DNA of 64,000 bases. Origin: Oscillospiraceae bacterium. GTDB lineage: Bacteria; Bacillota; Clostridia; Oscillospirales; Ruminococcaceae. The stretch's first letter is position 1; the number at the start of each line of letters is the position of its first letter. The notes under the pieces are model-generated. The model saw nothing but the letters and a program-made list of their open reading frames with translations, ran no database searches and was not told the DNA's origin. The position numbers and the translations under genes are program-made. Below, in pieces: positions 2,024 to 13,132 of the stretch. The stretch lies in assembly GCA_014799395.1 (NCBI GenBank), contig JAAVID010000064.1, positions 1 to 64,000 of the forward strand, read 5' to 3'.

Positions 2024-3526
<1,503 letters not shown>

Positions 3527-3544
3527 TTAAATATTATTGTAACT

Positions 3545-3573
3545 ATTATACACCAATCGGCAATTTTTTTCAA
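3545..3573 (-). promoter_or_regulatory. guaB promoter
   Basis: On the minus strand TTGAAA (complement of 3568-3573) and TATAAT (complement of 3545-3550) are separated by exactly 17 bp. The leader to ATG 3496 would be about 40 nt, too short for a riboswitch. Confidence 0.8.
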
Positions 3574-3678
3574 GACTAACAAAAAAGAAAAATACACAAA
3601 TATCTTTACTTTTTTTCAACGAGTTTGGAACATTTTAACGCACTTGCTAAATTTTCTGTAAAAAAATAGATTTACTTC

Positions 3679-3707
3679 TTGACTTAACGGCAATTTTATT
3701 ATAGAAT
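3679..3707 (+). promoter_or_regulatory. Promoter of the phosphatase-rpe-rnf-like gene run
   Basis: TTGACT (3679-3684), 17-bp spacer, TAGAAT (3702-3707). It is the only good promoter I see ahead of the contiguous plus-strand run that reaches to about 11.7 kb. Confidence 0.7.
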
Positions 3708-3773
3708 ATATTTGTATGGTGTAAAAGAGGATTTTATTGGTTTATTCGGCAAAAGCGGCGGGTGAGGTAAAAT

Positions 3774-4874
3774 ATGGAAATTATGTTTCCCGATTATGAC
3801 AATTGCATAGCGAATCTCGCCTGCTCGGTAATGAAGCATTTCGGAGTCACGCCGCCGAATACCACCCTGCCGCTCGCGGACGGGCTGCTTTCGGAGCGGC
3901 GTTATAAAAACGTTGTTGTAATGCTGCTGGACGGAATGGGCAATAATATCATCGAGGCGAACCTTGAGCCCGGCGGATTTTTCCGCGGTCATCTCGCGGG
4001 AACGTATTCCTCGGTGTTTCCGCCGACCACCGTCGCCGCTACTACGGCTATGGACAGCGGACTTTTCCCTGTGCAGTCTGCGTGGCTGGGCTGGACGGGA
4101 TATTTCCCCGAGGTCGACAAAAACGTGGTGTATTTTCTCAATCGGGATTTTGATACCGATGAACAAATTGAGGGCGACAGCATAGCGTGGACATATGTGC
4201 CGTATTGGAGTATCTGCGACCGTATACGGGACGCGGGCTATGGGGCGCATTACCGCGCGCCGTTTACAGAGCCGTACCCCGAGGACTTCGGCGCTTTTTG
4301 CCGCGAGATAAAGCGGCTTTGCGCCGAGGACAGCGAGAAATTCGTATACGCCTACTGGGATCAGCCCGACACCGTAATGCACCGCAAGGGCTGCTTCGGC
4401 GAACGCGCTAAGTCGACGGTTCGCGAGCTTGAAAAAGCGGTCGGGGAGCTTGCCGATGAGCTGTCCGATACTCTGCTGCTGATCACGGCGGATCACGGAC
4501 ATATCGACAGCCCTAAGGCGGTAGTCACGCACTATCCCGATATAATGGAATGTCTGGTGAGAATGCCGTCGATAGAGCCGCGCTGCCTTAATCTGTTCGT
4601 CAAGGACGGAATGGAGGAACAGCTCAAAGCGGCGTTCAATGAGCATTTTGACGGAAAGTTTATGCTGATGTCCAAAGCGGAGGTCAAGGAGCGGCAGTTG
4701 TTCGGCAAAGGCGAGCCGCACCCGCGCTTTGACGGAATGCTTGGCGACTATATCGCAGCCGCGGTCGGCGACGTTTCGATATACAATATGGACAGCAAAA
4801 ACTTTGTCGGCGCTCACGCGGGGCTTACCGAGGACGAGATGATAATTCCGCTGATAGCGGTTAAAAAGGAATGA
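3774..4874 (+). CDS. Alkaline phosphatase superfamily phosphodiesterase/phosphatase
   Basis: A 366-residue cytoplasmic protein (no signal peptide) of the type I phosphodiesterase/nucleotide pyrophosphatase branch of the alkaline phosphatase superfamily. Seen in the sequence: the metal-binding start LLDGMG (Asp53), the likely nucleophile Thr in PPTTVAATTA (about 83-92), a second metal motif ITADHGHID, and a C-terminal GAHAGLTEDE that supplies another His. The substrate cannot be told; nucleotide or sugar phosphates are possible. Its stop overlaps the rpe start by 4 bp (ATGA), so the two are translationally coupled. This could mean it acts on a pentose-phosphate intermediate, but that is only an inference from position. 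Confidence 0.85.
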   Translation: MEIMFPDYDNCIANLACSVMKHFGVTPPNTTLPLADGLLSERRYKNVVVMLLDGMGNNIIEANLEPGGFFRGHLAGTYSSVFPPTTVAATTAMDSGLFPVQSAWLGWTGYFPEVDKNVVYFLNRDFDTDEQIEGDSIAWTYVPYWSICDRIRDAGYGAHYRAPFTEPYPEDFGAFCREIKRLCAEDSEKFVYAYWDQPDTVMHRKGCFGERAKSTVRELEKAVGELADELSDTLLLITADHGHIDSPKAVVTHYPDIMECLVRMPSIEPRCLNLFVKDGMEEQLKAAFNEHFDGKFMLMSKAEVKERQLFGKGEPHPRFDGMLGDYIAAAVGDVSIYNMDSKNFVGAHAGLTEDEMIIPLIAVKKE

Positions 4875-5539
4875 TAATTATAAATGATATAATAGTTTCC
4901 GTCTCGCTTCTCGCGAGCGATATGACAAAAATGGCGGAGGAGATACGCCGCTGCGAGAACGCGGGCGTGGACTGGATACATTACGACGTTATGGACGGGC
5001 ATTTCGTGGAGCAGATCTCCTACGGAACGCAGATACTGAAAAGCGTGAGAAAATGCACGGACAGACCTCTCGACGTGCATTTAATGGTAGAACGTCCCGA
5101 CCAACAGGCGGAATATTTCGCCGAGGCGGGCGCGGACATCATAGATATACACATAGAAAGCCCGTGCGATACCGCCGCGTGTCTGAAACGCATACGCGAA
5201 ATGGGAAAATCGCCCGCGCTGGCGATAAAGCCGAAAACTCCGATAGAGGAAGCGTATCCGTATCTTCCCTTGTGCGATATGGTCTTGGTTATGACCGTCG
5301 AGCCGGGCTACGGCGGACAGGGTTTTATCGCGGAGATGACGGCTAAGGTAAAGTCTCTGCGCGAATACGCCGACAACAACGGCTTTCCGTCGCTGAATAT
5401 TCAGGTCGACGGTGGTATCAACGAAAAAACGGGCGCACAAGCCAAAAGGGCGGGCGCAAACGTATTCGTCGCGGGTACGGGTCTGTTTAACGCAAACGAT
5501 ATGAAAGCGGTCAACTCCGCATTGAAAGGAACTCTTTAA
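4871..5539 (+). CDS. rpe: Ribulose-phosphate 3-epimerase
   Basis: A 222-residue TIM-barrel enzyme interconverting ribulose 5-phosphate and xylulose 5-phosphate in the pentose phosphate pathway. Family motifs are present: VSLLASD near the N-terminus, HYDVMDGHFV with metal-ligand His and Asp, DVHLMVERPD, MTVEPGYGGQGFI and QVDGGIN. Length is normal. The only usable start is the ATG that overlaps the phosphatase stop. The next gene, an rnfD homologue, starts on the base after the rpe stop, so rpe is embedded in the operon. Confidence 0.95.
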   Translation: MIIINDIIVSVSLLASDMTKMAEEIRRCENAGVDWIHYDVMDGHFVEQISYGTQILKSVRKCTDRPLDVHLMVERPDQQAEYFAEAGADIIDIHIESPCDTAACLKRIREMGKSPALAIKPKTPIEEAYPYLPLCDMVLVMTVEPGYGGQGFIAEMTAKVKSLREYADNNGFPSLNIQVDGGINEKTGAQAKRAGANVFVAGTGLFNANDMKAVNSALKGTL

Positions 5540-6655
5540 ATGATTAAATTTACTGCGCGGGAGCCTAACAAGGTCTATCTCGAGCGATTTGTTATAATGG
5601 CTATGCTGCTCGTGCTCTCAACGCGTATGCAGGGCTTCAGAGCGCTGGCGGTCGGTATACTCAGCGTCGTGCTGTGTCTGGTGACCGACCTTATATGCTG
5701 TCTTATCCGGAAAATACCGTACAGCCCGAGAGATATGGCGGTGCCGTTCTGGGGACTGGCGGCGGCGCTTATGATGCCCGCTTCCGTACCGTTTATTCTG
5801 GTGGCGCTGTCCGCGGTGATATGTATAGTGGTGGGAAAACATCTGTTCGGCGCTTCGGACAATATCGTGTTCTGTCCGCCCGCTATCGCCGTGGCGTTTC
5901 TGATAATCTGCTATCCCTCGGAGCTGCTGTACGCTCCGAAATACGGCGAGCATATTCCCGTATTTGAGGAATACGGCGGACTGCTTACGCGCTCGGTGGA
6001 GTATTCGCTCAAGCTCGGAAACGTTCCGACGGGCAGTCTCTGGGATATTCTTATGGGATTTGTCTCGGGGTCGATAGGCACGGTTTATATACTGGTAATA
6101 CTGGTGTGCGGGATCTGTATGATCATCCACCGCTCCAACAGCGGCTGCGCGGTCATATCCTGCCTTGTGACGGCGGGAGTGCTGGCGTTTTTCTTCCCGA
6201 GGATAAGCGTTTCGGGTATTCAGTCGGTGTTTTACGAGCTGAGCTCGGGGTATCTGCTGTTCGGAATGGTATTCCTCGCCGCCGAGCCTTACAGAATGCC
6301 GGAAAAGGCTATGGGCAGAGTTATCTACGGTATGGTGCTGGGATATATAACGATGATGTTCCGCGTGTTCGGTCAGACAGAGGGCAGCTTCCTGTTCGCC
6401 TTGCTTATAACGGGAGCGCTCGGCAGCAGCTTCGACAGAGTTGTCGAGAATATTGTGTACTGGAAACGGACGTACATCAACTCGTTCGAGAAATCCAAAA
6501 CGCAGGTTCAGCGCGGCGACATAAAACTCACCGACACGCAGGAGATAGTATTGCCCGAAAAATACCGCTTCAACACTCCGCCCATTGACGGAGAGGTAAA
6601 GAAAAAGCGCAGACGCTTCAAGGACGATAAGGGGGATAACAATGAAAAAAAGTAA
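5540..6655 (+). CDS. RnfD/NqrB-family membrane protein lacking the flavinylation motif
   Basis: A 371-residue polytopic membrane protein with about ten hydrophobic helices and a basic cytoplasmic tail rich in Lys/Arg (last 30 residues). The family is recognised from GSIGTVYILVILVCG, matching the GSIGE motif of RnfD/NqrB, and from the overall helix pattern. In canonical RnfD/NqrB a Thr in an SGAT motif just upstream of this segment is covalently flavinylated by ApbE. Here the corresponding stretch reads LGNVPTGSLWDIL with no SGAT, and the Glu of GSIGE is Thr. No apbE is nearby. It overlaps the rnfE-like gene by 14 bp. Family assignment is fairly safe; electron transfer by this protein is doubtful. 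Confidence 0.8.
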   Translation: MIKFTAREPNKVYLERFVIMAMLLVLSTRMQGFRALAVGILSVVLCLVTDLICCLIRKIPYSPRDMAVPFWGLAAALMMPASVPFILVALSAVICIVVGKHLFGASDNIVFCPPAIAVAFLIICYPSELLYAPKYGEHIPVFEEYGGLLTRSVEYSLKLGNVPTGSLWDILMGFVSGSIGTVYILVILVCGICMIIHRSNSGCAVISCLVTAGVLAFFFPRISVSGIQSVFYELSSGYLLFGMVFLAAEPYRMPEKAMGRVIYGMVLGYITMMFRVFGQTEGSFLFALLITGALGSSFDRVVENIVYWKRTYINSFEKSKTQVQRGDIKLTDTQEIVLPEKYRFNTPPIDGEVKKKRRRFKDDKGDNNEKK

Positions 6656-7253
6656 ATTCTCCGTGAACCTTGACGGCTTGCTGAGACAGAATATCGTGCT
6701 TATGAGCGGACTTGTCACCGCGCCCGTTATCGTCGCGGCGACCACCGTGCAGCGCGCCGTCGTGCTGACGGTGAGCTTTTTCCTGCTGTCGTACACAAGC
6801 ATACTGCTGTGCAGATTTATCCCGAGACGTATCGTATATACTATCAGAATACTGCTGTACGCGGTAGTCGCGGCGGCTATGTATATCCCGACTATGATAT
6901 GTCTGGAGTATCTGTTCCCCGAGGTTTTGTCGGGCGTTTCGCTGTATGTCGAGCTGCTGGTTGTGAACTCGTTCCTGCTGGCGAAAACCGAAACGCGCTT
7001 CTATCTCAAGCCCTACGGCGAGATGGTGCTCGACGTGCTGGTCTACGTCGTCGGTTACGCGATAGTGGCGTTTATCGTGGGCGCTCTGCGTGAGATACTC
7101 GCCTACGGCACGATTTACGGATTTCATCTGTCCGAGCCGATAATGCCCGCGGCGAAATCGCCGTTTTTCGGATTTATTCTTGTGGGCGTGCTCGCGGCGT
7201 TCTGCCGCGGAATTTCGGGCAGACGCGCTCCCCGAAAGGAGCGTGACGTATGA
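6642..7253 (+). CDS. RnfE/NqrD-family membrane protein lacking iron-ligand cysteines
   Basis: A 203-residue protein with about six membrane helices. The family signature GALREILAYGTIYG (canonical ALREILGxGT) is clear near residues 147-160. In RnfE/NqrD a Cys before Pro in the first helix (GLCP) and a Cys in the NC motif of the fourth helix bind the membrane iron centre. Here the first site reads TAPVIVAATT (Ala before Pro) and the second reads VVNSFLLAK (Ser for Cys). A strong Shine-Dalgarno (GGGGGATAAC) lies inside the end of the rnfD-like gene. Its stop overlaps the next start by 4 bp. Confidence 0.8.
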   Translation: MKKSKFSVNLDGLLRQNIVLMSGLVTAPVIVAATTVQRAVVLTVSFFLLSYTSILLCRFIPRRIVYTIRILLYAVVAAAMYIPTMICLEYLFPEVLSGVSLYVELLVVNSFLLAKTETRFYLKPYGEMVLDVLVYVVGYAIVAFIVGALREILAYGTIYGFHLSEPIMPAAKSPFFGFILVGVLAAFCRGISGRRAPRKERDV

Positions 7254-7846
7254 GCGAGGTATTTGCTAAGATCGTAAGCCTTGCGATGATCTCTGTGTTT
7301 ATGCAGAACGCGATATTCGACAGGGCGTTCGGCGCGAACGTCGCGATATACGCCTCGCGCAAGGACAATCACGTTATCGGCTTTACGTTTGCCATTACCG
7401 CGATGACTACGCTTTCAAGCATAGTCTCGTACTTCTTCGACAAGCTCCTGCTTCCCAAGCCGAACGGCTATCTGTTTATGCCGCTTATCTATGTCGGCAT
7501 AATCGGCGTGCTGTATATGCTCGGACTGTTTATTCTGTGGAAGTTCTTCCACACGCTGTTCCGCAAAATAAAGCAGTACGCAAGCCTCGCCGTGTTCAAC
7601 TGCACCGTTATCGGCGCGCTGTTTCTGAACTCGAACTACGGAAGCGACCTCGCAAGCTATATCGGCTACGGCTTCGGCACGGGCATAGGATTTTTCCTCG
7701 CCTGCTTTATGCTGAACATCGCTCACGAGAGACTTGACTCGGATAAAATACCGCGCATTTTCCGCGGCTACCCCATAATGCTGATCTATATAGGCATTGT
7801 TTCACTTGCGTTTAACGTATTGGTTGGATATACCGCTGAATTCTAG
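7250..7846 (+). CDS. RnfA/NqrE-family membrane protein, partly lacking iron ligands
   Basis: A 198-residue six-helix membrane protein. The C-terminal half matches RnfA/NqrE well: FNCTVIGALFLN, IGYGFGTGIGFFLACF, ERLDSDKIPRIFRGYPIMLI and IVSLAF. The second iron-ligand Cys (in FNC) is kept, but the first, normally in GICP of helix 1, is replaced (FGANVAIYAS). It is the last of three translationally linked genes in the order D-E-A. RnfB, RnfC and RnfG are absent from the window on either side. It could form the inverted-repeat heterodimer with the RnfE-like protein as in Rnf/Nqr, but with an incomplete redox site. Confidence 0.82.
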   Translation: MSEVFAKIVSLAMISVFMQNAIFDRAFGANVAIYASRKDNHVIGFTFAITAMTTLSSIVSYFFDKLLLPKPNGYLFMPLIYVGIIGVLYMLGLFILWKFFHTLFRKIKQYASLAVFNCTVIGALFLNSNYGSDLASYIGYGFGTGIGFFLACFMLNIAHERLDSDKIPRIFRGYPIMLIYIGIVSLAFNVLVGYTAEF

Positions 7847-7885
7847 TCAAAAATAAACTACGATAACTACGAAAGGAGAATTACA

Positions 7886-9112
7886 ATGGCACAAAAAAAG
7901 ACCAATATCAAAATAAAGCGCAAAAAGTTCAACCTATACAATAAGAAAAAGAGCAAAGCGCGGCAGGCGCTCACCTTGATACTGACTATCGCCGCGGCGT
8001 GCGCGCTGGGTATTGTGGGCTACGGTATCGGAAAGCCCGTGCTGGACTATTTTCAAAACCGCGGACAGTATACCTCCGACAGCTCGGATATAAGCAGTAC
8101 CGTTTCGGACAGCTCCGATGTCTCGGTCGGCACGGAAACCGCGGACAGCTCGGACAATTCCGACGGCTCGGCGTTATCGGAAAGCACCGAAAGCTCGGAA
8201 AGCGCCGACCCCGAACCTCCCGCTATGGACGGTACCGTGTATTTCCTCCCGGACAACGCCGCGGCAAGCTCCGCGTCGCTCAACAGCGCCCTGGCGGCGG
8301 CTAAGAGCGCGGGGCACACCACCGTTGCGGTAACGCTTAAGGACGCGAGCGGTATCTTCTACTACAAGACCAACATCGCGAGCGTAAAGAATACCGAATC
8401 CGTCAAGGGAACGCTCACTGCCGCGCAGATATACGATATTATAAATAAGGCGGGGCTTTCTCCCGCGGCGAGGATAAGCACCCTTATGGACAGCAATAAC
8501 CCCGGAGCTACGGGCGGAAGCTACGAGCTTGCGGGAGAAGCGGGCTATTGGCTCGACAACCGCAAGGAAAACGGCGGAAAAACGTGGCTCTCCCCGTTCA
8601 AGAACGCGACGACAACCTTTTTGAAGAGCGTTGCCGACGAGATAGCGGCGGCGGGCTTTAAGATAATCATCTGCGCCAACACGCGTTATCCCGCGTTCCA
8701 CAATGTGGATATAACGACATATCTGAAAGACCTGCCGCTCGGCGACGCGGCAAAGCGCACGGCGGCGTTGTGGGCTGTTCTCGACGCGATAAGCACGTCC
8801 GCTTCGGGCAAGGGAGCGCAGGTGTGGATAGAGGTAGGCTCGGAGGGCGTTCTCGCCGAAAACAAGAGCTGTACCGACGCGGAGATATTCTCCGACAAGA
8901 CCAAGACGGGCGCGGCAAAGATAATATTCAGCTACGCGGCGAGCGGAAACGCCTCGGACGCGTATAAAAACGCCAAGGATTTCGCCGCCAAGGCAAAGGC
9001 GGCGGCAAACGGCGCGGAGACTGCCGTGCTGATAAAGGGCTTCTCGGGCTCGGCGCTCTCGGACGTTCAGAAAGCGTTTAAGGAAGCGGATATGCCCGTG
9101 TACTCACAGTAA
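7886..9112 (+). CDS. Membrane-anchored DUF4015-like (putative glycoside hydrolase-like) protein
   Basis: A 408-residue protein with a very basic N-terminus (1-30), one membrane helix at about 31-53, a Ser/Asp-rich linker at about 62-110, and an extracellular domain. Parts of that domain recall the barrel-shaped DUF4015 family: AVTLKDASGIFYYKT (family VIDVKD-G), AARISTLMD (family IAR-F-D), WLSPF and a segment ending IIICANTRYP. The match is remote, and the expected acidic catalytic residue in the last motif (LDYVRFP in relatives) is changed to CANTRYP, so activity is uncertain. It has a GAAAGGAG site and lies between the rnf-like trio and yajC. It may act at the cell surface. Confidence 0.6.
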   Translation: MAQKKTNIKIKRKKFNLYNKKKSKARQALTLILTIAAACALGIVGYGIGKPVLDYFQNRGQYTSDSSDISSTVSDSSDVSVGTETADSSDNSDGSALSESTESSESADPEPPAMDGTVYFLPDNAAASSASLNSALAAAKSAGHTTVAVTLKDASGIFYYKTNIASVKNTESVKGTLTAAQIYDIINKAGLSPAARISTLMDSNNPGATGGSYELAGEAGYWLDNRKENGGKTWLSPFKNATTTFLKSVADEIAAAGFKIIICANTRYPAFHNVDITTYLKDLPLGDAAKRTAALWAVLDAISTSASGKGAQVWIEVGSEGVLAENKSCTDAEIFSDKTKTGAAKIIFSYAASGNASDAYKNAKDFAAKAKAAANGAETAVLIKGFSGSALSDVQKAFKEADMPVYSQ

Positions 9113-9179
9113 CGATTATTGCCCGAACGGGTCAATATACAGAAGAATGTTTTTACGGTAAAGAAAATGGAGGACAACT

Positions 9180-9572
9180 ATGAATTTGCTTAATTTTATC
9201 TCATCGGCGAGCGCCGCGGCAGACACCGCGCAGACAGGCGGTATACTCGGTATTCTCACGATGATACTTCCGCTCGGACTTATGGTGCTGGTGTTCTGGT
9301 TCCTGATAATACGTCCCGAGAAGAAGCGCACAAAGGAAATGCAGAATATGCTCGACAGCTTGCAGGTTGCCGACGAGGTCATAACAAACGGCGGCATTAT
9401 CGGGCGCGTTCTGTCCGTGCAGAAGGACACCGTGCTTATCGAAACAGGCTCGGACCGCACCAAGATACGCGTTGTAAAGTCGGCGATAGCGAAGAACAAT
9501 ACCGAGCACGAAAACGCCGCTCCCGCGGTCGAGGCTAAAAAGACCAAGGGCAACAAGACCGAGATCAAGTAA
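9180..9572 (+). CDS. yajC: Preprotein translocase accessory subunit YajC
   Basis: A 130-residue single-helix membrane protein. The helix (about 24-43) is followed by the family hallmark FLIIRPEKKRTKEMQ and the small beta domain VADEVITNGGIIGRV. YajC associates with SecDF-YidC at the Sec translocon. No secD or secF follows here, unlike the common arrangement. The N-terminal stretch ahead of the helix is Ala/Ser-rich. Its stop overlaps the TetR start (TAATG). Confidence 0.93.
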   Translation: MNLLNFISSASAAADTAQTGGILGILTMILPLGLMVLVFWFLIIRPEKKRTKEMQNMLDSLQVADEVITNGGIIGRVLSVQKDTVLIETGSDRTKIRVVKSAIAKNNTEHENAAPAVEAKKTKGNKTEIK

Positions 9573-10165
9573 TGTCGGGCGATCTGCGCGTTGTCAAGAC
9601 GCGGCGCGTTATCCGAAACACGCTGTTTGAACTGATGGGCGAAAAGCCGCTCTCGAAAATAACCATTTCGGAGATATGCGCGCGCGCCGAGATAAACCGA
9701 AAGACCTTTTACCGCCATTACCGCGCTGTCGGAGACGTGATAGAGGAGCTCGAAAACGAGATACTCGGCGAGATCTCCGCGATAATGCGCACGGGAAACA
9801 AAAGCGTGCTGGACGTCGGCGCGGCGATACGCGACATAAGCGCTATGGTGGAGCGGCGCAGAGATTTTTTCGCGGGGCTGATGAAGCTCAACCCCGATCT
9901 GTTCAGCAACGGAAAAATCAAGGCTATGCTGTGCAGAATGATCTCGGTAGCTCTGAAAAACATAGGCGCGTTGTACGACGAAACGACGCTCCGCGCCGCC
10001 GCGGAATTCACGGTGTCGGGAGTGCTGTCGCTGTACGCGGCGTGGTTTGACAACGGCTGCAAGGACGATCTCGCGTTCCTCACCGAGGTCTCGGTAAAGA
10101 TGACGACAAAGGGGCTTTCGGCGTTCGTTTCCGAGGAAAAGCTCTCGGAAATGCGCTTAAAATAG
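9572..10165 (+). CDS. TetR-family transcriptional regulator
   Basis: A 197-residue regulator. The N-terminal helix-turn-helix is clear: RRVIRNTLFELMGEKP, then ITISEICARAEINRKTFYRHY at about 30-50. The C-terminal helical ligand domain is of the type found in many Firmicute TetR proteins (TetR_C). It is translationally coupled to yajC and sits 16 bp ahead of bioY, so it might respond to an envelope or metabolite signal and act on this run of genes. No palindromic operator is obvious in the short flanking gaps. Confidence 0.88.
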   Translation: MSGDLRVVKTRRVIRNTLFELMGEKPLSKITISEICARAEINRKTFYRHYRAVGDVIEELENEILGEISAIMRTGNKSVLDVGAAIRDISAMVERRRDFFAGLMKLNPDLFSNGKIKAMLCRMISVALKNIGALYDETTLRAAAEFTVSGVLSLYAAWFDNGCKDDLAFLTEVSVKMTTKGLSAFVSEEKLSEMRLK

Positions 10166-10181
10166 GTTAGGAGATTTTATT

Positions 10182-10757
10182 ATGAAAACCGAAAAAAGAG
10201 ACTTTTTTAATATAAGAAGTATGGTGTTTATGGCGATATTCGCGGCGCTTATATGCGTTGCCGCGCCGTTTCAGATCCCGCTGCCGGGGCTTGTTCCCAT
10301 ATCGCTCGGAACGTTCGCGATCTACCTTACGGGCGCAATGCTCGGCGGCAAGCGCGGAACGGTTTCGGTTTGCGTGTATATACTGCTCGGCGCTGTCGGT
10401 CTTCCCGTTTTTACCGGATTTATGGGCGGCTTTGCGAAGCTTCTCGGTCCTACGGGCGGCTACATAATCGGGTATATCCCGCTGGTTCTGCTTACGGGTA
10501 TATTCTCGGATATGCCGTCTAAGAAGCACTGGACAATGCCCGTGGGAATGGTGCTCGGAACGGTGGCTTTGTACGCGTTCGGTACGGCTTGGTTTATGAT
10601 AATGAACGGTTCGCCGCTCGAGACTGCGCTTATGAACTGCGTGGTGCCGTTCCTTATCGGCGATACTATAAAGATAGTTCTGTCGACTATGATAGCGCTG
10701 CCGCTTAAGTCTCGTCTCAACGCCATTATCGGAGGAAACTCGGGGCTTGACAAGTGA
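10182..10757 (+). CDS. bioY: Biotin transporter S component BioY
   Basis: A 191-residue membrane protein with about six helices, the substrate-binding component of a biotin ECF transporter. Family features: the N-terminal MVFMAIFAALICVAAPFQIP, VPISLGTFAIYLTGAMLGG, and the conserved loop GLPVFTGFMGGFAKLLGPTG followed by GYIIGY. It lacks its own energising EcfAT genes here, so it probably uses a shared module encoded elsewhere. Its stop overlaps the GTG start of the next gene. Confidence 0.93.
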   Translation: MKTEKRDFFNIRSMVFMAIFAALICVAAPFQIPLPGLVPISLGTFAIYLTGAMLGGKRGTVSVCVYILLGAVGLPVFTGFMGGFAKLLGPTGGYIIGYIPLVLLTGIFSDMPSKKHWTMPVGMVLGTVALYAFGTAWFMIMNGSPLETALMNCVVPFLIGDTIKIVLSTMIALPLKSRLNAIIGGNSGLDK

Positions 10758-11719
10758 ACTCCGCGTTTGTAATAGCTTTTCAGGCGGGCGTGATGTTTAT
10801 ACTTATCGCGGCGGGGTATTTTCTGTACAAGAAAAAATTCCTCGGCGACGAGGCTACGCAGCAGTTATCCAACATCGCGATAACGCTTATCAACCCGATA
10901 GTTATCTTCAACGCCTACCAGACGGATTTTGACCCGTCGCTGTTCCGCGGGCTTATGTACGCGCTTCTGCTGGCGTTTATAGCGCAGACTATTCTTGTGT
11001 GCTCGGCGTACATAATGGTGCGCCCGAACCACAAAAGCGCGGAAATAGAGCGTTTTGCGCTCGGCTACTCGAACTGCGCGTTTATGGGCATACCGCTTAT
11101 CGAGGCGACGTTCGGCTCGGAGGGAGTTTTTTACCTCACCGCTTTTATCACGGCGTTCAACATATTTATGTGGACGCACGGCGTGGTGCTTATGGGCGGC
11201 TCGGAGAACAAAAGATCCCCGAAGGAACGCGCCGCGGAGACAGCAAAGATACTGCTTTCCCCCGCCATACTGTCGACGGTGCTGGGGCTGGTGTTCTTCT
11301 TTACGGGGCTGAGAATGCCGCGGATAATCCAACAGCCGCTGGGCTACCTCGGCGCGATGAACACTCCGCTCGCTATGCTCGTTTCGGGCGCGACTATCGC
11401 GAGGGTCGGGCTTCTTGGAGGGCTGAAAAACAAGCGCATATACTTTCTTCAGTCGTTCAAGCTGATTATCGTGCCTATGCTGCTCGCGGCGCTGTATGTT
11501 CCTATGGAGCTGTTCGGGGTGAGCCCGATAGTCGTAAACACGATGATACTTGCCGCAGCCGCGCCGACAGCCTCCGCGACGATAATGTTTTCGTACAAAT
11601 TCGGCAGAGACTCGGGCTACGCCTCCAATCACTTCGCAATGTCGACGATAGCGGGTATAGTTACAATGCCGCTCGTTCTGGCGTTCGCGCAAATGTTGGA
11701 AAGATTGTTTATTCCTTAA
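10754..11719 (+). CDS. AEC-family (auxin efflux carrier-like) transporter
   Basis: A 321-residue membrane protein with about ten helices in two halves, as in the AEC/PIN superfamily of organic acid or malonate exporters. Typical segments are the N-terminal GVMFILIAAGYFLYKK, ITLINPIVIFNAYQ, FGYSNCAFMGIPL-like YSNCAFMGIPLIEATFG, and the second-half LMSGATIA-like VSGATIARVG. Start is GTG at 10754, which overlaps the bioY stop and is the only start giving the full first helix. Substrate is unknown. It is the last gene of the plus-strand run. Confidence 0.88.
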   Translation: MNSAFVIAFQAGVMFILIAAGYFLYKKKFLGDEATQQLSNIAITLINPIVIFNAYQTDFDPSLFRGLMYALLLAFIAQTILVCSAYIMVRPNHKSAEIERFALGYSNCAFMGIPLIEATFGSEGVFYLTAFITAFNIFMWTHGVVLMGGSENKRSPKERAAETAKILLSPAILSTVLGLVFFFTGLRMPRIIQQPLGYLGAMNTPLAMLVSGATIARVGLLGGLKNKRIYFLQSFKLIIVPMLLAALYVPMELFGVSPIVVNTMILAAAAPTASATIMFSYKFGRDSGYASNHFAMSTIAGIVTMPLVLAFAQMLERLFIP

Positions 11720-11728
11720 TTGGTAAAT

Positions 11729-11756
11729 TTTTGTACAAAATTGCTAAATTAGCAAT
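11729..11756. repeat. Two adjacent AT-rich palindromes
   Basis: TTTTGTACAAAA (11729-11740) is a perfect 12-bp palindrome. ATTGCTAA-A-TTAGCAAT (11740-11756) follows it. They lie just after the AEC stop and 24 bp upstream of the -35 of the small-RNA promoter, so they could be operators for that promoter as easily as 3'-end structures. Confidence 0.45.
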
Positions 11757-11779
11757 ATAAAATTTGTGCGAAATTAGAA

Positions 11780-11808
11780 TTGAAAATCAAGACGGAAAAT
11801 GTTATAAT
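11780..11808 (+). promoter_or_regulatory. Promoter of a probable small RNA
   Basis: TTGAAA (11780-11785), 17-bp spacer, TATAAT (11803-11808). No convincing ORF follows before the terminator at 11935-11968. Confidence 0.75.
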
Positions 11809-11814
11809 TTAATT

Positions 11815-11968
11815 ACAATAAATTTGCGAGATAGTATTGTAGCTTTATGCTTACATACTTCTTAATATATTTTCCCCAATTATTTTCAGTCTGATCTGTT
11901 TTCCCCAAACAGGTCGACGGTTTGATTTGACTTTCCGCGGACACCCCCTTGTCCGTGGCTTTTTTTTT
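11815..11968 (+). ncRNA. Candidate C-rich trans-acting small RNA (about 154 nt)
   Basis: A consensus promoter and a strong terminator bracket about 154 nt with no ORF that has a ribosome site. Three C-rich patches are seen: TTTTCCCCAA at 11870-11879, the same ten bases at 11899-11908, and CACCCCCTTG in the terminator loop (11942-11951). The second patch forms the loop of a hairpin, CTGTTT (11896-11901) / AAACAG (11907-11912), with loop TCCCC. Exposed UCCC(C) loops are the hallmark of Gram-positive sRNAs such as RsaE/RoxS that pair with Shine-Dalgarno sequences. The role is inferred from this resemblance only. Confidence 0.65.
11935..11968 (+). terminator. Terminator of the candidate small RNA
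   Basis: CCGCGGACA (11935-11943) pairs with TGTCCGTGG (11950-11958), followed by C and nine T. The loop is C-rich. Confidence 0.9.
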
Positions 11969-11977
11969 ACAATAATG

Positions 11978-12065
11978 ATCCCCGTCTAAGCGATCGCCTT
12001 GACGGGGATATTGATTTGCAGAAAAAGTTATTTTGACCCGCATTTGCCGGACTGTCGGGAAATGC
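11978..12065 (-). terminator. Hairpins downstream of the ABC operon
   Basis: Two stems lie past the last gene of the minus-strand operon: GCATTT (12040-12045) / AAATGC (12060-12065), and a 9-bp stem ATCCCCGTC (11978-11986) / GACGGGGAT (12001-12009). Neither has a tight T run on the minus strand, so termination is only probable. Confidence 0.4.
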
Positions 12066-12079
12066 GTCGCAATGGCTGT

Positions 12080-12220
12080 TTAGTGGTTGACATTGTAAAT
12101 AAACTCGCCTATGTCCGTACCCACTCTTGTGCCTGCGTATGCGGAGAAAATCACGCAGACAACAAGCGCCGCAATACATACGCCGATAACCAAGCCCTTG
12201 GTTTTCTTGTCTTTATCCAT
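12080..12220 (-). CDS. Small single-helix membrane protein of the ABC operon
   Basis: A 46-residue ORF with an AGGAGG site 5-7 bases before ATG 12220 and stop at 12080. It has a basic start (MDKDKKTKG), one hydrophobic helix (about 9-30), and a short polar tail. It lies 12 bp after the ABC permease on the same strand. I recognise no family. The position suggests an accessory subunit of the exporter. Confidence 0.7.
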   Translation of the reverse strand: MDKDKKTKGLVIGVCIAALVVCVIFSAYAGTRVGTDIGEFIYNVNH

Positions 12221-12232
12221 AGCGACCTCCTA

Positions 12233-13132
12233 TCAGAATTCGGGGCGTTCTTCCTCGGTGTTGTCGATCTTCTTTGCGTTGAGAACTCCAAGCGAAAGGA
12301 AGAACATCATCACCGCTATCACAAGCGAGATCGCTATGCCGACTATAATGCTCGGCATACTTCCCGAAATGTCGAAGTCCTCCATGATCATATAACTCGG
12401 CAGGGTGACAAGCGTGAACGGGTTGTAGTCAATTAAGCCCATACTGTTGAATATCGTCTGGAGGAACGACTGCCCGAAGAAAATGACGACCGTCGCCACG
12501 CCGGGGCGCGAGGTGCATAATCCCACCGCGAGGTATACGCAGGTCAGAAACAGCGTGTATACCGAGTACATAAGCGTACACAGCAGAATAACCTCCGCCG
12601 AGACCTTATTGTTGGGGAAGAACGCGTTGCAGAACGCGCCGGTAATGGGAACGCTTACCGCCGTCACCGCGAACACGGTCAAGGGGTAAATAACGAACTT
12701 GGGGATAAGGTAATTTTTGTACTCGAGACCGCTGCACATCGGAACTATCGTCGCGCGCTTTTTCTGCTCGCCGCCCGCCGCCGCCATAAGCAGGAGCATA
12801 ACGATAAGCATGGACATACCCGCAAAGCTCGCTATCGCAGTCGAGAATATCATTCCCGCGTCGGAATACACGGCTACTATCTCGTCCATTCCGATATTGC
12901 CGAAAATCTCGTTGAAATCGCCGCCCATTCCCGCGGAAGCGTAGGTCGAAGCGAACACTGTGTTTCCCGAACCGTCGGGCGAGCCGTACACCATTTCCAT
13001 CATAACGCTCGCCATTTTAAAAATTATCGGGTTTGAAAGTGCGAACGCCAAAATAGCCGCGATAACTCCGATTATCCTGCCCGTGCGGGCGAAATGCGCC
13101 CATTCCTTTTTAAAGCTGTACTTTAACTGCAT
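12233..13132 (-). CDS. ABC-2 type transporter permease
   Basis: A 299-residue membrane protein with about six helices: one near residues 18-40, a long extracellular loop rich in Gly/Ser, then five in the C-terminal two thirds. It is the likely export channel for the ATPase encoded just upstream. ATG 13132 is chosen over an upstream in-frame ATG (13165) because it follows directly after the ATPase stop with a GGTGG site, while the longer form would overlap the ATPase by 32 bp. The substrate is unknown; small peptides, lipids or drugs are possible. Confidence 0.85.
   Translation of the reverse strand: MQLKYSFKKEWAHFARTGRIIGVIAAILAFALSNPIIFKMASVMMEMVYGSPDGSGNTVFASTYASAGMGGDFNEIFGNIGMDEIVAVYSDAGMIFSTAIASFAGMSMLIVMLLLMAAAGGEQKKRATIVPMCSGLEYKNYLIPKFVIYPLTVFAVTAVSVPITGAFCNAFFPNNKVSAEVILLCTLMYSVYTLFLTCVYLAVGLCTSRPGVATVVIFFGQSFLQTIFNSMGLIDYNPFTLVTLPSYMIMEDFDISGSMPSIIVGIAISLVIAVMMFFLSLGVLNAKKIDNTEEERPEF

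Follow-up and report, generated by a model that had tools for sequence, protein, structure and literature searches.

The closest described relatives of the locus analyzed here are the Rnf complex (ferredoxin:NAD+ oxidoreductase, rnfCDGEAB) and the Na+-NQR (nqrABCDEF), the latter held to have arisen by duplication of an rnf operon and loss of rnfB (PMC4014512). In the Rnf complex of Acetobacterium woodii, the [2Fe-2S] cluster is ligated by Cys25 and Cys113 of RnfA together with Cys25 and Cys108 of RnfE, while RnfD carries flavin mononucleotide (FMN) on Thr156 and holds riboflavin through Asn123 and Asp249 (PMC11889175). The route of Na+ in Rnf and NQR is disputed and has been placed either in RnfD/NqrB or in the RnfA/E dimer (PMC12174285, PMC11889175). 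A legend published in 2024 for Faecalibacterium duncaniae A2-165 presents two putative rnf operons, rnfDEA and rnfCDGEAB, for an energy-conserving NADH:ferredoxin oxidoreductase (PMC10781979). Here we analyzed a stretch of 64,000 nucleotides (the window; positions 1–64,000 of contig JAAVID010000064.1) from Oscillospiraceae bacterium GCA_014799395.1 (assembly of 2.76 Mb, 97.75% complete), in which three overlapping genes encode relatives of RnfD/NqrB, RnfE/NqrD, and RnfA/NqrE, designated D', E', and A'. We tentatively regard these genes as a non-redox derivative of the Rnf membrane core that could move an ion or a solute, a function deduced from sequence comparison.

The three genes lie on the + strand, as do all other features of the window given below: D' at 5540..6655 (371 aa; PF03116, E=1.6e-47), E' at 6642..7253 (203 aa; PF02508, 3.7e-22), and A' at 7250..7846 (198 aa; PF02508, 9.1e-24). 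The stop codon of rpe immediately precedes the start of D', and the D'–E' and E'–A' pairs overlap head to tail. All three Pfam matches were above the gathering scores, and solved RnfD, RnfE, and RnfA chains were matched as well. The NCBIfam scores fell far below the curated cut-offs: 78.8 vs. 207 bits for D' (rnfD), 47.4 vs. 213 for E' (rnfE), and 85 vs. 229 for A' (rnfA). Six hydrophobic segments were counted in E' and six in A' by a simple scan. PF03116 was the only Pfam domain of D', with no fused NAD-binding domain (PF00175). We failed to find RnfB, RnfC, or RnfG in the gene run of the window using both the list of open reading frames (ORFs) and Pfam; NqrF, NqrA, and NqrC were likewise not detected there by Pfam, the search for NqrF and NqrA being confined to this gene run. 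A complete rnfCDGEAB operon was encoded on a second contig (C65) of the same genome.

The cofactor sites were mapped by alignment with canonical copies of the same order and with the solved chains 9eri, 7zc6, 8ahx, and 7xk3, which we take to be those of the A. woodii, Clostridium tetanomorphum, and Azotobacter vinelandii Rnf and the Vibrio cholerae NQR, respectively. Three of the four Fe-S ligands were lost, the residues at the four sites of E' and A' being Ala, Ser, Asn, and Cys. E' lacks both of its cysteines: Ala27 (codon 6720..6722) occupies the site of RnfE Cys25 and is Ala in 41 of 41 distinct sequences of the genus, and Ser110 (6969..6971) occupies that of Cys108 (Ser in 37 and Leu in 4 of the 41). 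A' retains one of two: Asn30 (7337..7339) stands at RnfA Cys25 (Asn in 38, Asp in 3), and Cys118 (7601..7603), corresponding to Cys113 of the FNC motif, is the sole Fe-S ligand left (Cys in 38, Leu in 3). In D', the stretch aligned to the FMN-Thr region contained no SGAT- or SATP-like motif. The riboflavin ligands of D' were replaced as well, with Cys112 (5873..5875) at the site of Asn123 and Glu249 (6284..6286) at that of Asp249; across the 41 genus sequences, the first site was Cys in 23, Ser in 17, and Pro in 1, and the second was Glu in all. A first-pass annotation, made from the letters of the window, had described an overlapping Rnf/Nqr-like D-E-A trio with no rnfB, rnfC, or rnfG nearby, lacking SGAT, with Ala and Ser at the two RnfE cysteines, and keeping only FNC in the RnfA-like protein. 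The ORFs, Pfam, and NCBIfam agree with its gene assignments, no gene for the three missing subunits was seen in the same gene run, and the alignment that it proposed revealed that the FMN threonine and three of the four cysteines are absent, none of them being merely displaced.

Only one FMN_bind protein, namely RnfG of the complete rnf operon, and one ApbE were found genome-wide; there is thus no second flavin carrier for the trio, and a spare RnfG or another flavinylated partner was rejected as a candidate. A module with its own electron partner, one of the options in the annotation, is therefore not borne out in this genome. In 22 loci of relatives within the family, a degenerate RnfC (C') lies directly upstream of D', so an electron partner was probably once present and then lost. 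We consider it very probable, from the residues and genes present, that the trio is non-redox. The annotation's idea of a distinct, possibly non-redox complex built from the Rnf core holds well, as the trio is conserved and separate from the complete Rnf of the same genome.

E' was present in 36 of 37 genomes of the genus, including that of the window; in one of these (G019) it was only partial, at a contig end. The sole genome without E' (G002) also lacked rpe, so the locus probably falls in an assembly gap; a natural loss of the trio there was rejected, and this genome was not taken as evidence. No stop codon occurred in the E' matches across the genus. A scan of named genomes yielded 41 loci, all from metagenome-assembled genomes (MAGs) labelled Clostridia, Oscillospiraceae, or Ruminococcaceae. 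In 40 of these loci, rpe lay upstream of D' and was read in the same direction, the contig of the remaining one starting inside D'. No ORF with RnfB, RnfC, or RnfG as best match was seen in the 41 loci. One of the 41, from the Oscillospiraceae MAG Th196P3bin75 (L116), is distant (50% in A') and keeps both riboflavin ligands. The rpe gene itself (4871..5539; PF00834, 3.9e-67) encodes ribulose-phosphate 3-epimerase, a housekeeping enzyme, and served as a marker of the locus in nearly all relatives.

The family was sampled with one genome per genus (80 genomes), of which 70 gave a match; apart from the window's own, the best match of each of the other 69 was fetched, plus some second matches. The degenerate copy was found in 59 of the 80 genomes: the window's own, all 40 of the first two fetches, and 18 more, including two (G244 and G293) in which it was the second match. 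The remainder comprised 11 genomes whose only match was canonical, judging by its neighbours, and 10 without a match. The rpe gene was visible at 57 of the 59 degenerate copies, L188 and L229 being cut by a contig end; among the 40 first-fetched loci it was present at 39, and the exception lies at a contig end, its sequence starting with D' or close to it. C' adjoined D', without B or G, in 22 of the 59 copies and was lacking in 35, the window's own included. The C' state of L188 and L229 could not be judged; L188 was grouped with the copies lacking C' in residue counts, and L229 was left out of the 57-locus counts. The RnfE cysteines and the first RnfA cysteine were kept in none of these 57 loci, one of which lacks A'. 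L038 and L150 were relabelled as C-D-E-A by hand, since the secondary RnfB match was their own C'.

Degenerate copies also occurred in other families. C-D-E-A without B and G was found beside rpe in families f5, f15, and f24, from which canonical operons were also fetched (G040, G050, and G059), and f23 contained rpe-D-E-A-DUF4015 with a stop codon in E'. A complete rnfCDGEAB lay between rpe and the DUF4015 gene in f4 (L041), which fits a descent of the degenerate copies from a complete operon at this site. Stop codons inside E' were found in G058 and G300; that of G058 (L039, contig C22) is a TGA in the RnfE-like frame of a D-E-A trio, for which sequencing error, decay, or recoding are candidates. 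In two loci with B and G, L160 (G116) and L040 (G054), Fe-S cysteines were missing: the four E/A sites read C, G, T, T and C, G, G, C, and one Cys of L040 sits one place off. Judging by these residues, both would be cases of partial cluster loss in an otherwise complete Rnf; they were left out of the canonical conservation set, the contig-cut L154 and L055 were counted as canonical rows, and L163 and L164 were dropped.

The relatives form a ladder of reduction: the full Rnf; C-D-E-A copies that lack B, G, and most of the Fe-S cysteines and retain riboflavin ligands; and D-E-A copies, in which the latter are often lost too. C' keeps the eight Fe-S cysteines of RnfC in 4/4 aligned sequences and no longer has the GxGGAxFP stretch present in the four canonical RnfC rows, presumably the NADH/FMN loop. 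The riboflavin Asn was kept in 22/22 and the Asp in 16/22 family loci with C' (Glu in 6); the corresponding values without C' were 14/35 and 22/35, and in the window's genus both were 0/41. This contrast is only descriptive because the groups with and without C' are clades or nearly so, with one to three changes on the tree. The association of C' with the residues was tested on 18 C-D-E-A loci (17 with an E sequence), and the Fisher values were not used as evidence because of too few independent changes.

One genus of family f7 (g7) bears on how often the reduction took place. Four of its genomes (L049, L147, L148, and L149) contain C-D-E-A lacking B, G, and the Fe-S cysteines and no other pair of PF02508 genes, and the fifth (G102) has a complete rnf operon. 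In the tree of the D protein, from which L039 was left out, the C-D-E-A copies of g7 group in one clade with the D of the complete operon (support 100/97), in favour of a separate reduction; going by the D protein, this genus probably made the C-D-E-A reduction on its own. The D tree was preferred over that of D, E, and A combined because, in our judgement, E and A change fast. A single origin of all degenerate copies was also considered, and the D'E'A' tree cannot settle it owing to long branches, which risk meeting.

Estimates of dN/dS (nonsynonymous to synonymous substitution ratio) against the nearest genome (G020), a single pair, were 0.093 for D', 0.111 for E', and 0.026 for A', the last being the lowest among the 8 genes compared; rpe gave 0.097, YajC 0.125, and the DUF4015 gene 0.162. 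In the pair tested, these ratios indicate that the trio is under purifying selection, with no sign of decay. Since most Fe-S and flavin sites are gone yet the trio is conserved, evolution may have turned a pump core to an electron-free job.

The residues kept in E' and A' include several of those named for Na+ passage in A. woodii, where the pair RnfE Arg67–Glu115 and RnfA Asn112 are singled out (PMC11889175). Arg69 of E' (codon 6846..6848) corresponds to the ion-pair or gating residue Arg67 and was kept in 41/41 genus and 28/31 family D-E-A sequences; Glu117 (6990..6992) corresponds to Glu115, of the ion pair and Na+ entry, and was kept in 41/41 and 26/31. In the larger set of 35 family D-E-A loci, the values were 30 for Arg67 and 27 for Glu115, and Asn112 was kept in 33/35 (one of the 35 lacks A') and in 41/41 of the genus. 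Conservation was compared over the columns that hardly vary in 27 canonical sequences (46 in E and 47 in A), eight ion-path columns being set against 81 others. The eight were chosen by us from PMC11889175 as tied to Na+ passage or gating. The mean kept fraction was 0.65 for ion-path vs. 0.38 for other columns in the 31 family D-E-A sequences (one-sided p 0.043) and 0.70 vs. 0.35 in the 41 genus sequences (one-sided p 0.029), with related rows and uncorrected p values in both cases. The kept Arg–Glu pair and Asn112 are consistent with transport and do not amount to proof of it.

With these data, we regard movement of an ion or ion-coupled solute by the trio as plausible, at somewhat short of even chances. 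According to this reading, the redox parts of an older rnf operon at the rpe site would have disappeared in steps, beginning with B, G, and the Fe-S cluster and continuing with RnfC and riboflavin; the ferredoxin:NAD function would have stayed with a second rnf operon. A' and E' would still form the six-plus-six-helix alternating-access dimer, which, jointly with D', would carry Na+, H+, or an ion-coupled solute through the membrane with no electron transfer; the membrane-anchored DUF4015 protein would perhaps be a partner. Among the options of the first-pass annotation, an ion channel fits the kept residues best, although it, too, is drawn from residue conservation. A more specific version, which we consider doubtful, is that the A/E dimer, devoid of its [2Fe-2S] cluster, transports Na+ or another ion by alternating access, D-E-A together with the DUF4015 envelope protein being a new ion-driven or ion-leak device of Oscillospiraceae-like bacteria; perhaps such a conversion of a redox core to a non-redox transporter took place more than once.

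Several observations weigh against ion or solute movement by the trio and against the history proposed for it. The ion-path test is weak, with uncorrected p values, related rows, and columns chosen by ourselves from one paper; two of the eight columns, RnfA Thr110 and Thr111, are lost in the genus; and C-D-E-A copies show no excess (0.50 vs. 0.44, p 0.31). Residues named in the paper outside the set have changed too: in the genus, RnfA Pro107, a backbone contact, is lost, Leu22 is mostly Phe, and Lys32 is now Arg, the window having Ser, Phe, and Arg at the three sites. The Arg–Glu pair is not kept in all degenerate forms, Glu115 being present in only 4 of the 22 family C-D-E-A loci, and the kept Arg, Glu, and Asn may instead be structural. 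Only one to three changes of C' on the tree underlie the contrast between C-D-E-A and D-E-A. Unlike the D tree, the tree of D, E, and A places the C-D-E-A copies of g7 outside the canonical clade. Finally, a DUF4015 gene also follows 11 of the 24 canonical rnf operons with enough sequence (L037, L041, L042, L045, L152, L153, L155, L156, L160, L161, and L165), so its linkage to the trio may be inherited rather than functional, and DUF4015 may be a general neighbour of rnf in this order.

The trio might instead serve the canonical Rnf as an accessory, with D', E', or A' joining hybrid or inactive complexes and tuning or damping the pumping like a dead paralogue. Coexistence would favour this: counting how often a full rnf accompanies the trio, as the annotation had suggested, gave a second, canonical-scoring RnfE in 30 of the 37 genus genomes. 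Two PF02508 pairs per genome were found in seven genomes (G040, G050, G073, G058, G059, G128, and G233), and the intact Rnf of G000, G040, G050, and G059 forms one clade with support 100/99 in the tree of D, E, and A. Among ten second copies from family genomes with a degenerate copy, nine had matches to C, D, G, E, A, and B, and L258 lacked only G. However, six genus genomes contained the trio but no canonical E; five of them are less than 90% complete, and the sixth (G033, 93% complete) again gave the trio only in the scan for PF02508 pairs. The four g7 genomes with C-D-E-A and no other PF02508 pair point the same way, and we consider an accessory role unlikely.

The trio could also be the membrane part of a cell-envelope machine with the DUF4015 protein as its working part, in which the Rnf core would energize, anchor, or position an extracytoplasmic polysaccharide enzyme. 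The DUF4015 gene of the window (7886..9112; PF13200, 4.9e-11) encodes an N-terminal hydrophobic segment, recognized by eye, followed by a putative glycoside-hydrolase-like domain. It lies downstream of the trio in 59/59 genus rows of sufficient sequence length (39 distinct) and in 33/40 family loci. To our knowledge, no catalytic activity of DUF4015 is known, which counts against such a machine, as does the presence of the domain after canonical operons. Moreover, DUF4015 was not seen in the f24 loci L038 and L150, nor was it matched in seven of the family loci, some of which are cut by a contig end. In a paper on sporulation genes, YkyA domains are shown in fusions with polysaccharide deacetylase domains and with DUF4015 domains, in one case within a lipoprotein (PMC12700454), a link that would suit an envelope function. 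On balance, an envelope machine appears rather improbable.

A third possibility, that D' carries a small solute such as a flavin or a vitamin, has little to recommend it. A relationship between RnfD/NqrB and ammonium/urea transporters has been described (PMC12174285), and a BioY gene lies downstream in the same gene run. Yet not all relatives among the 41 named loci showed BioY, none of the Rfam families, including riboswitches, reached its threshold within positions 3400–12300, and the loss of the flavin-site residues argues against a flavin substrate at that site. The vitamin or flavin carrier of the first-pass annotation thus received no supporting evidence.

Electron transfer with other cofactors, such as a mononuclear metal at Cys118 or heme, would draw on the retention of this residue in 38/41 genus sequences and 24/35 family D-E-A loci and on the C-D-E-A relatives, which keep the RnfC Fe-S cysteines and the riboflavin Asn. 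However, Cys118 is replaced by Leu in three genus sequences, RnfC is gone in the window, and the genome offers no second FMN_bind partner, which makes continued redox activity very improbable. A decaying relic without function, which the stepwise loss of subunits and ligands and the stop inside E' of G058 and G300 might suggest, is already contradicted by dN/dS values of 0.03–0.11 in the one pair, 46 invariant columns of D' over 37 sequences, the intact E' frames of the genus, and the occurrence of the degenerate copy in 59 of the 80 genera sampled.

Part of an added C-terminal segment is among these invariant columns of D'. The tail (residues 330–350, LTDTQEI...TPPID; 6527..6589) is kept in the genus and partly in L116 and L186, and was not seen in the canonical RnfD rows of the alignment. 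Its DTQEI resembles what we take to be the phosphothreonine-x-x-Ile motif for FHA domains. FHA-type docking was rejected, as no FHA domain was found in the genome and the pattern coding for DTQEI occurred only once in it.

The gene order on the + strand was a phosphodiesterase-like gene, rpe, D', E', A', the DUF4015 gene, yajC, a TetR-type regulator, bioY, and a transporter. A candidate sigma-70-like promoter (3679..3707) upstream of the run and a terminator-like hairpin with a T-run (11935..11958) after the downstream genes were both recognized by consensus match only; the hairpin is a possible transcript end. The segment 9572–11958, after yajC and up to the hairpin, contained the TetR-type regulator, BioY, and a PF03547 membrane transporter, an order kept in part of the genus. 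In the window, rpe and D' abut. In L192, a MecA-like gene was found on the opposite strand between rpe and C'/D' (9398–9961; Pfam was run on this locus only), and similar-looking genes occupy this place in L036, L039, L052, L116, L185, L186, and L204; thiN was rejected as the identity of the intervening gene, which is MecA-like and on the other strand. Beyond rpe, a related gene on the other strand with a weak, partial RnfC-like match was seen in L199 (2717–3871), L217 (10094–11296), L240, L244, and L259. These matches (95 residues in L199 and 136 in L217, the rest matching the L199 gene) were not counted as C'.

The copies described here constitute a natural deletion series of one core: some have every cofactor site, others only riboflavin ligands and RnfC, and others neither of these. 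Residues still conserved in the stripped form hint at parts serving something other than electron transfer, and the trio allows ion flux to be tested without redox chemistry. Bacteria with the stripped core include some from animal guts. The legend on F. duncaniae was the only published account of a cofactor-free or D-E-A Rnf found by our search, whose scope lay outside most subscription journals and bioRxiv preprints.

Among known systems, the trio can be compared with the Rnf complex, with which it shares homologous D, E, and A, the gene order D-(G)-E-A, and the six hydrophobic segments of E' and A', and from which it differs in lacking RnfB, RnfC, RnfG, the full set of [2Fe-2S] ligands, the FMN threonine, and the riboflavin Asn/Asp. 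D', E', and A' also match NqrB, NqrD, and NqrE of the Na+-NQR; however, NQR keeps its cysteines and flavins and gained NqrF, whereas no redox subunit was found with the trio. The NQR/RNF-like systems of Meheust et al. (2021; PMC8238504) likewise use the NqrB/RnfD fold apart from a complete Rnf or NQR, but there NqrB/RnfD carries a fused NAD-binding domain and is linked to flavinylation; neither feature was seen for D'. The rnfDEA of F. duncaniae has the same three-gene make-up beside a separate rnfCDGEAB and, compared by gene make-up only, likely belongs to the trio family described here, but it is read in that legend as an energy-conserving oxidoreductase, with no word there on missing cofactor sites. 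If it is of this kind, counting such trios as working Rnf would misstate the energy metabolism of the bacteria that carry them.

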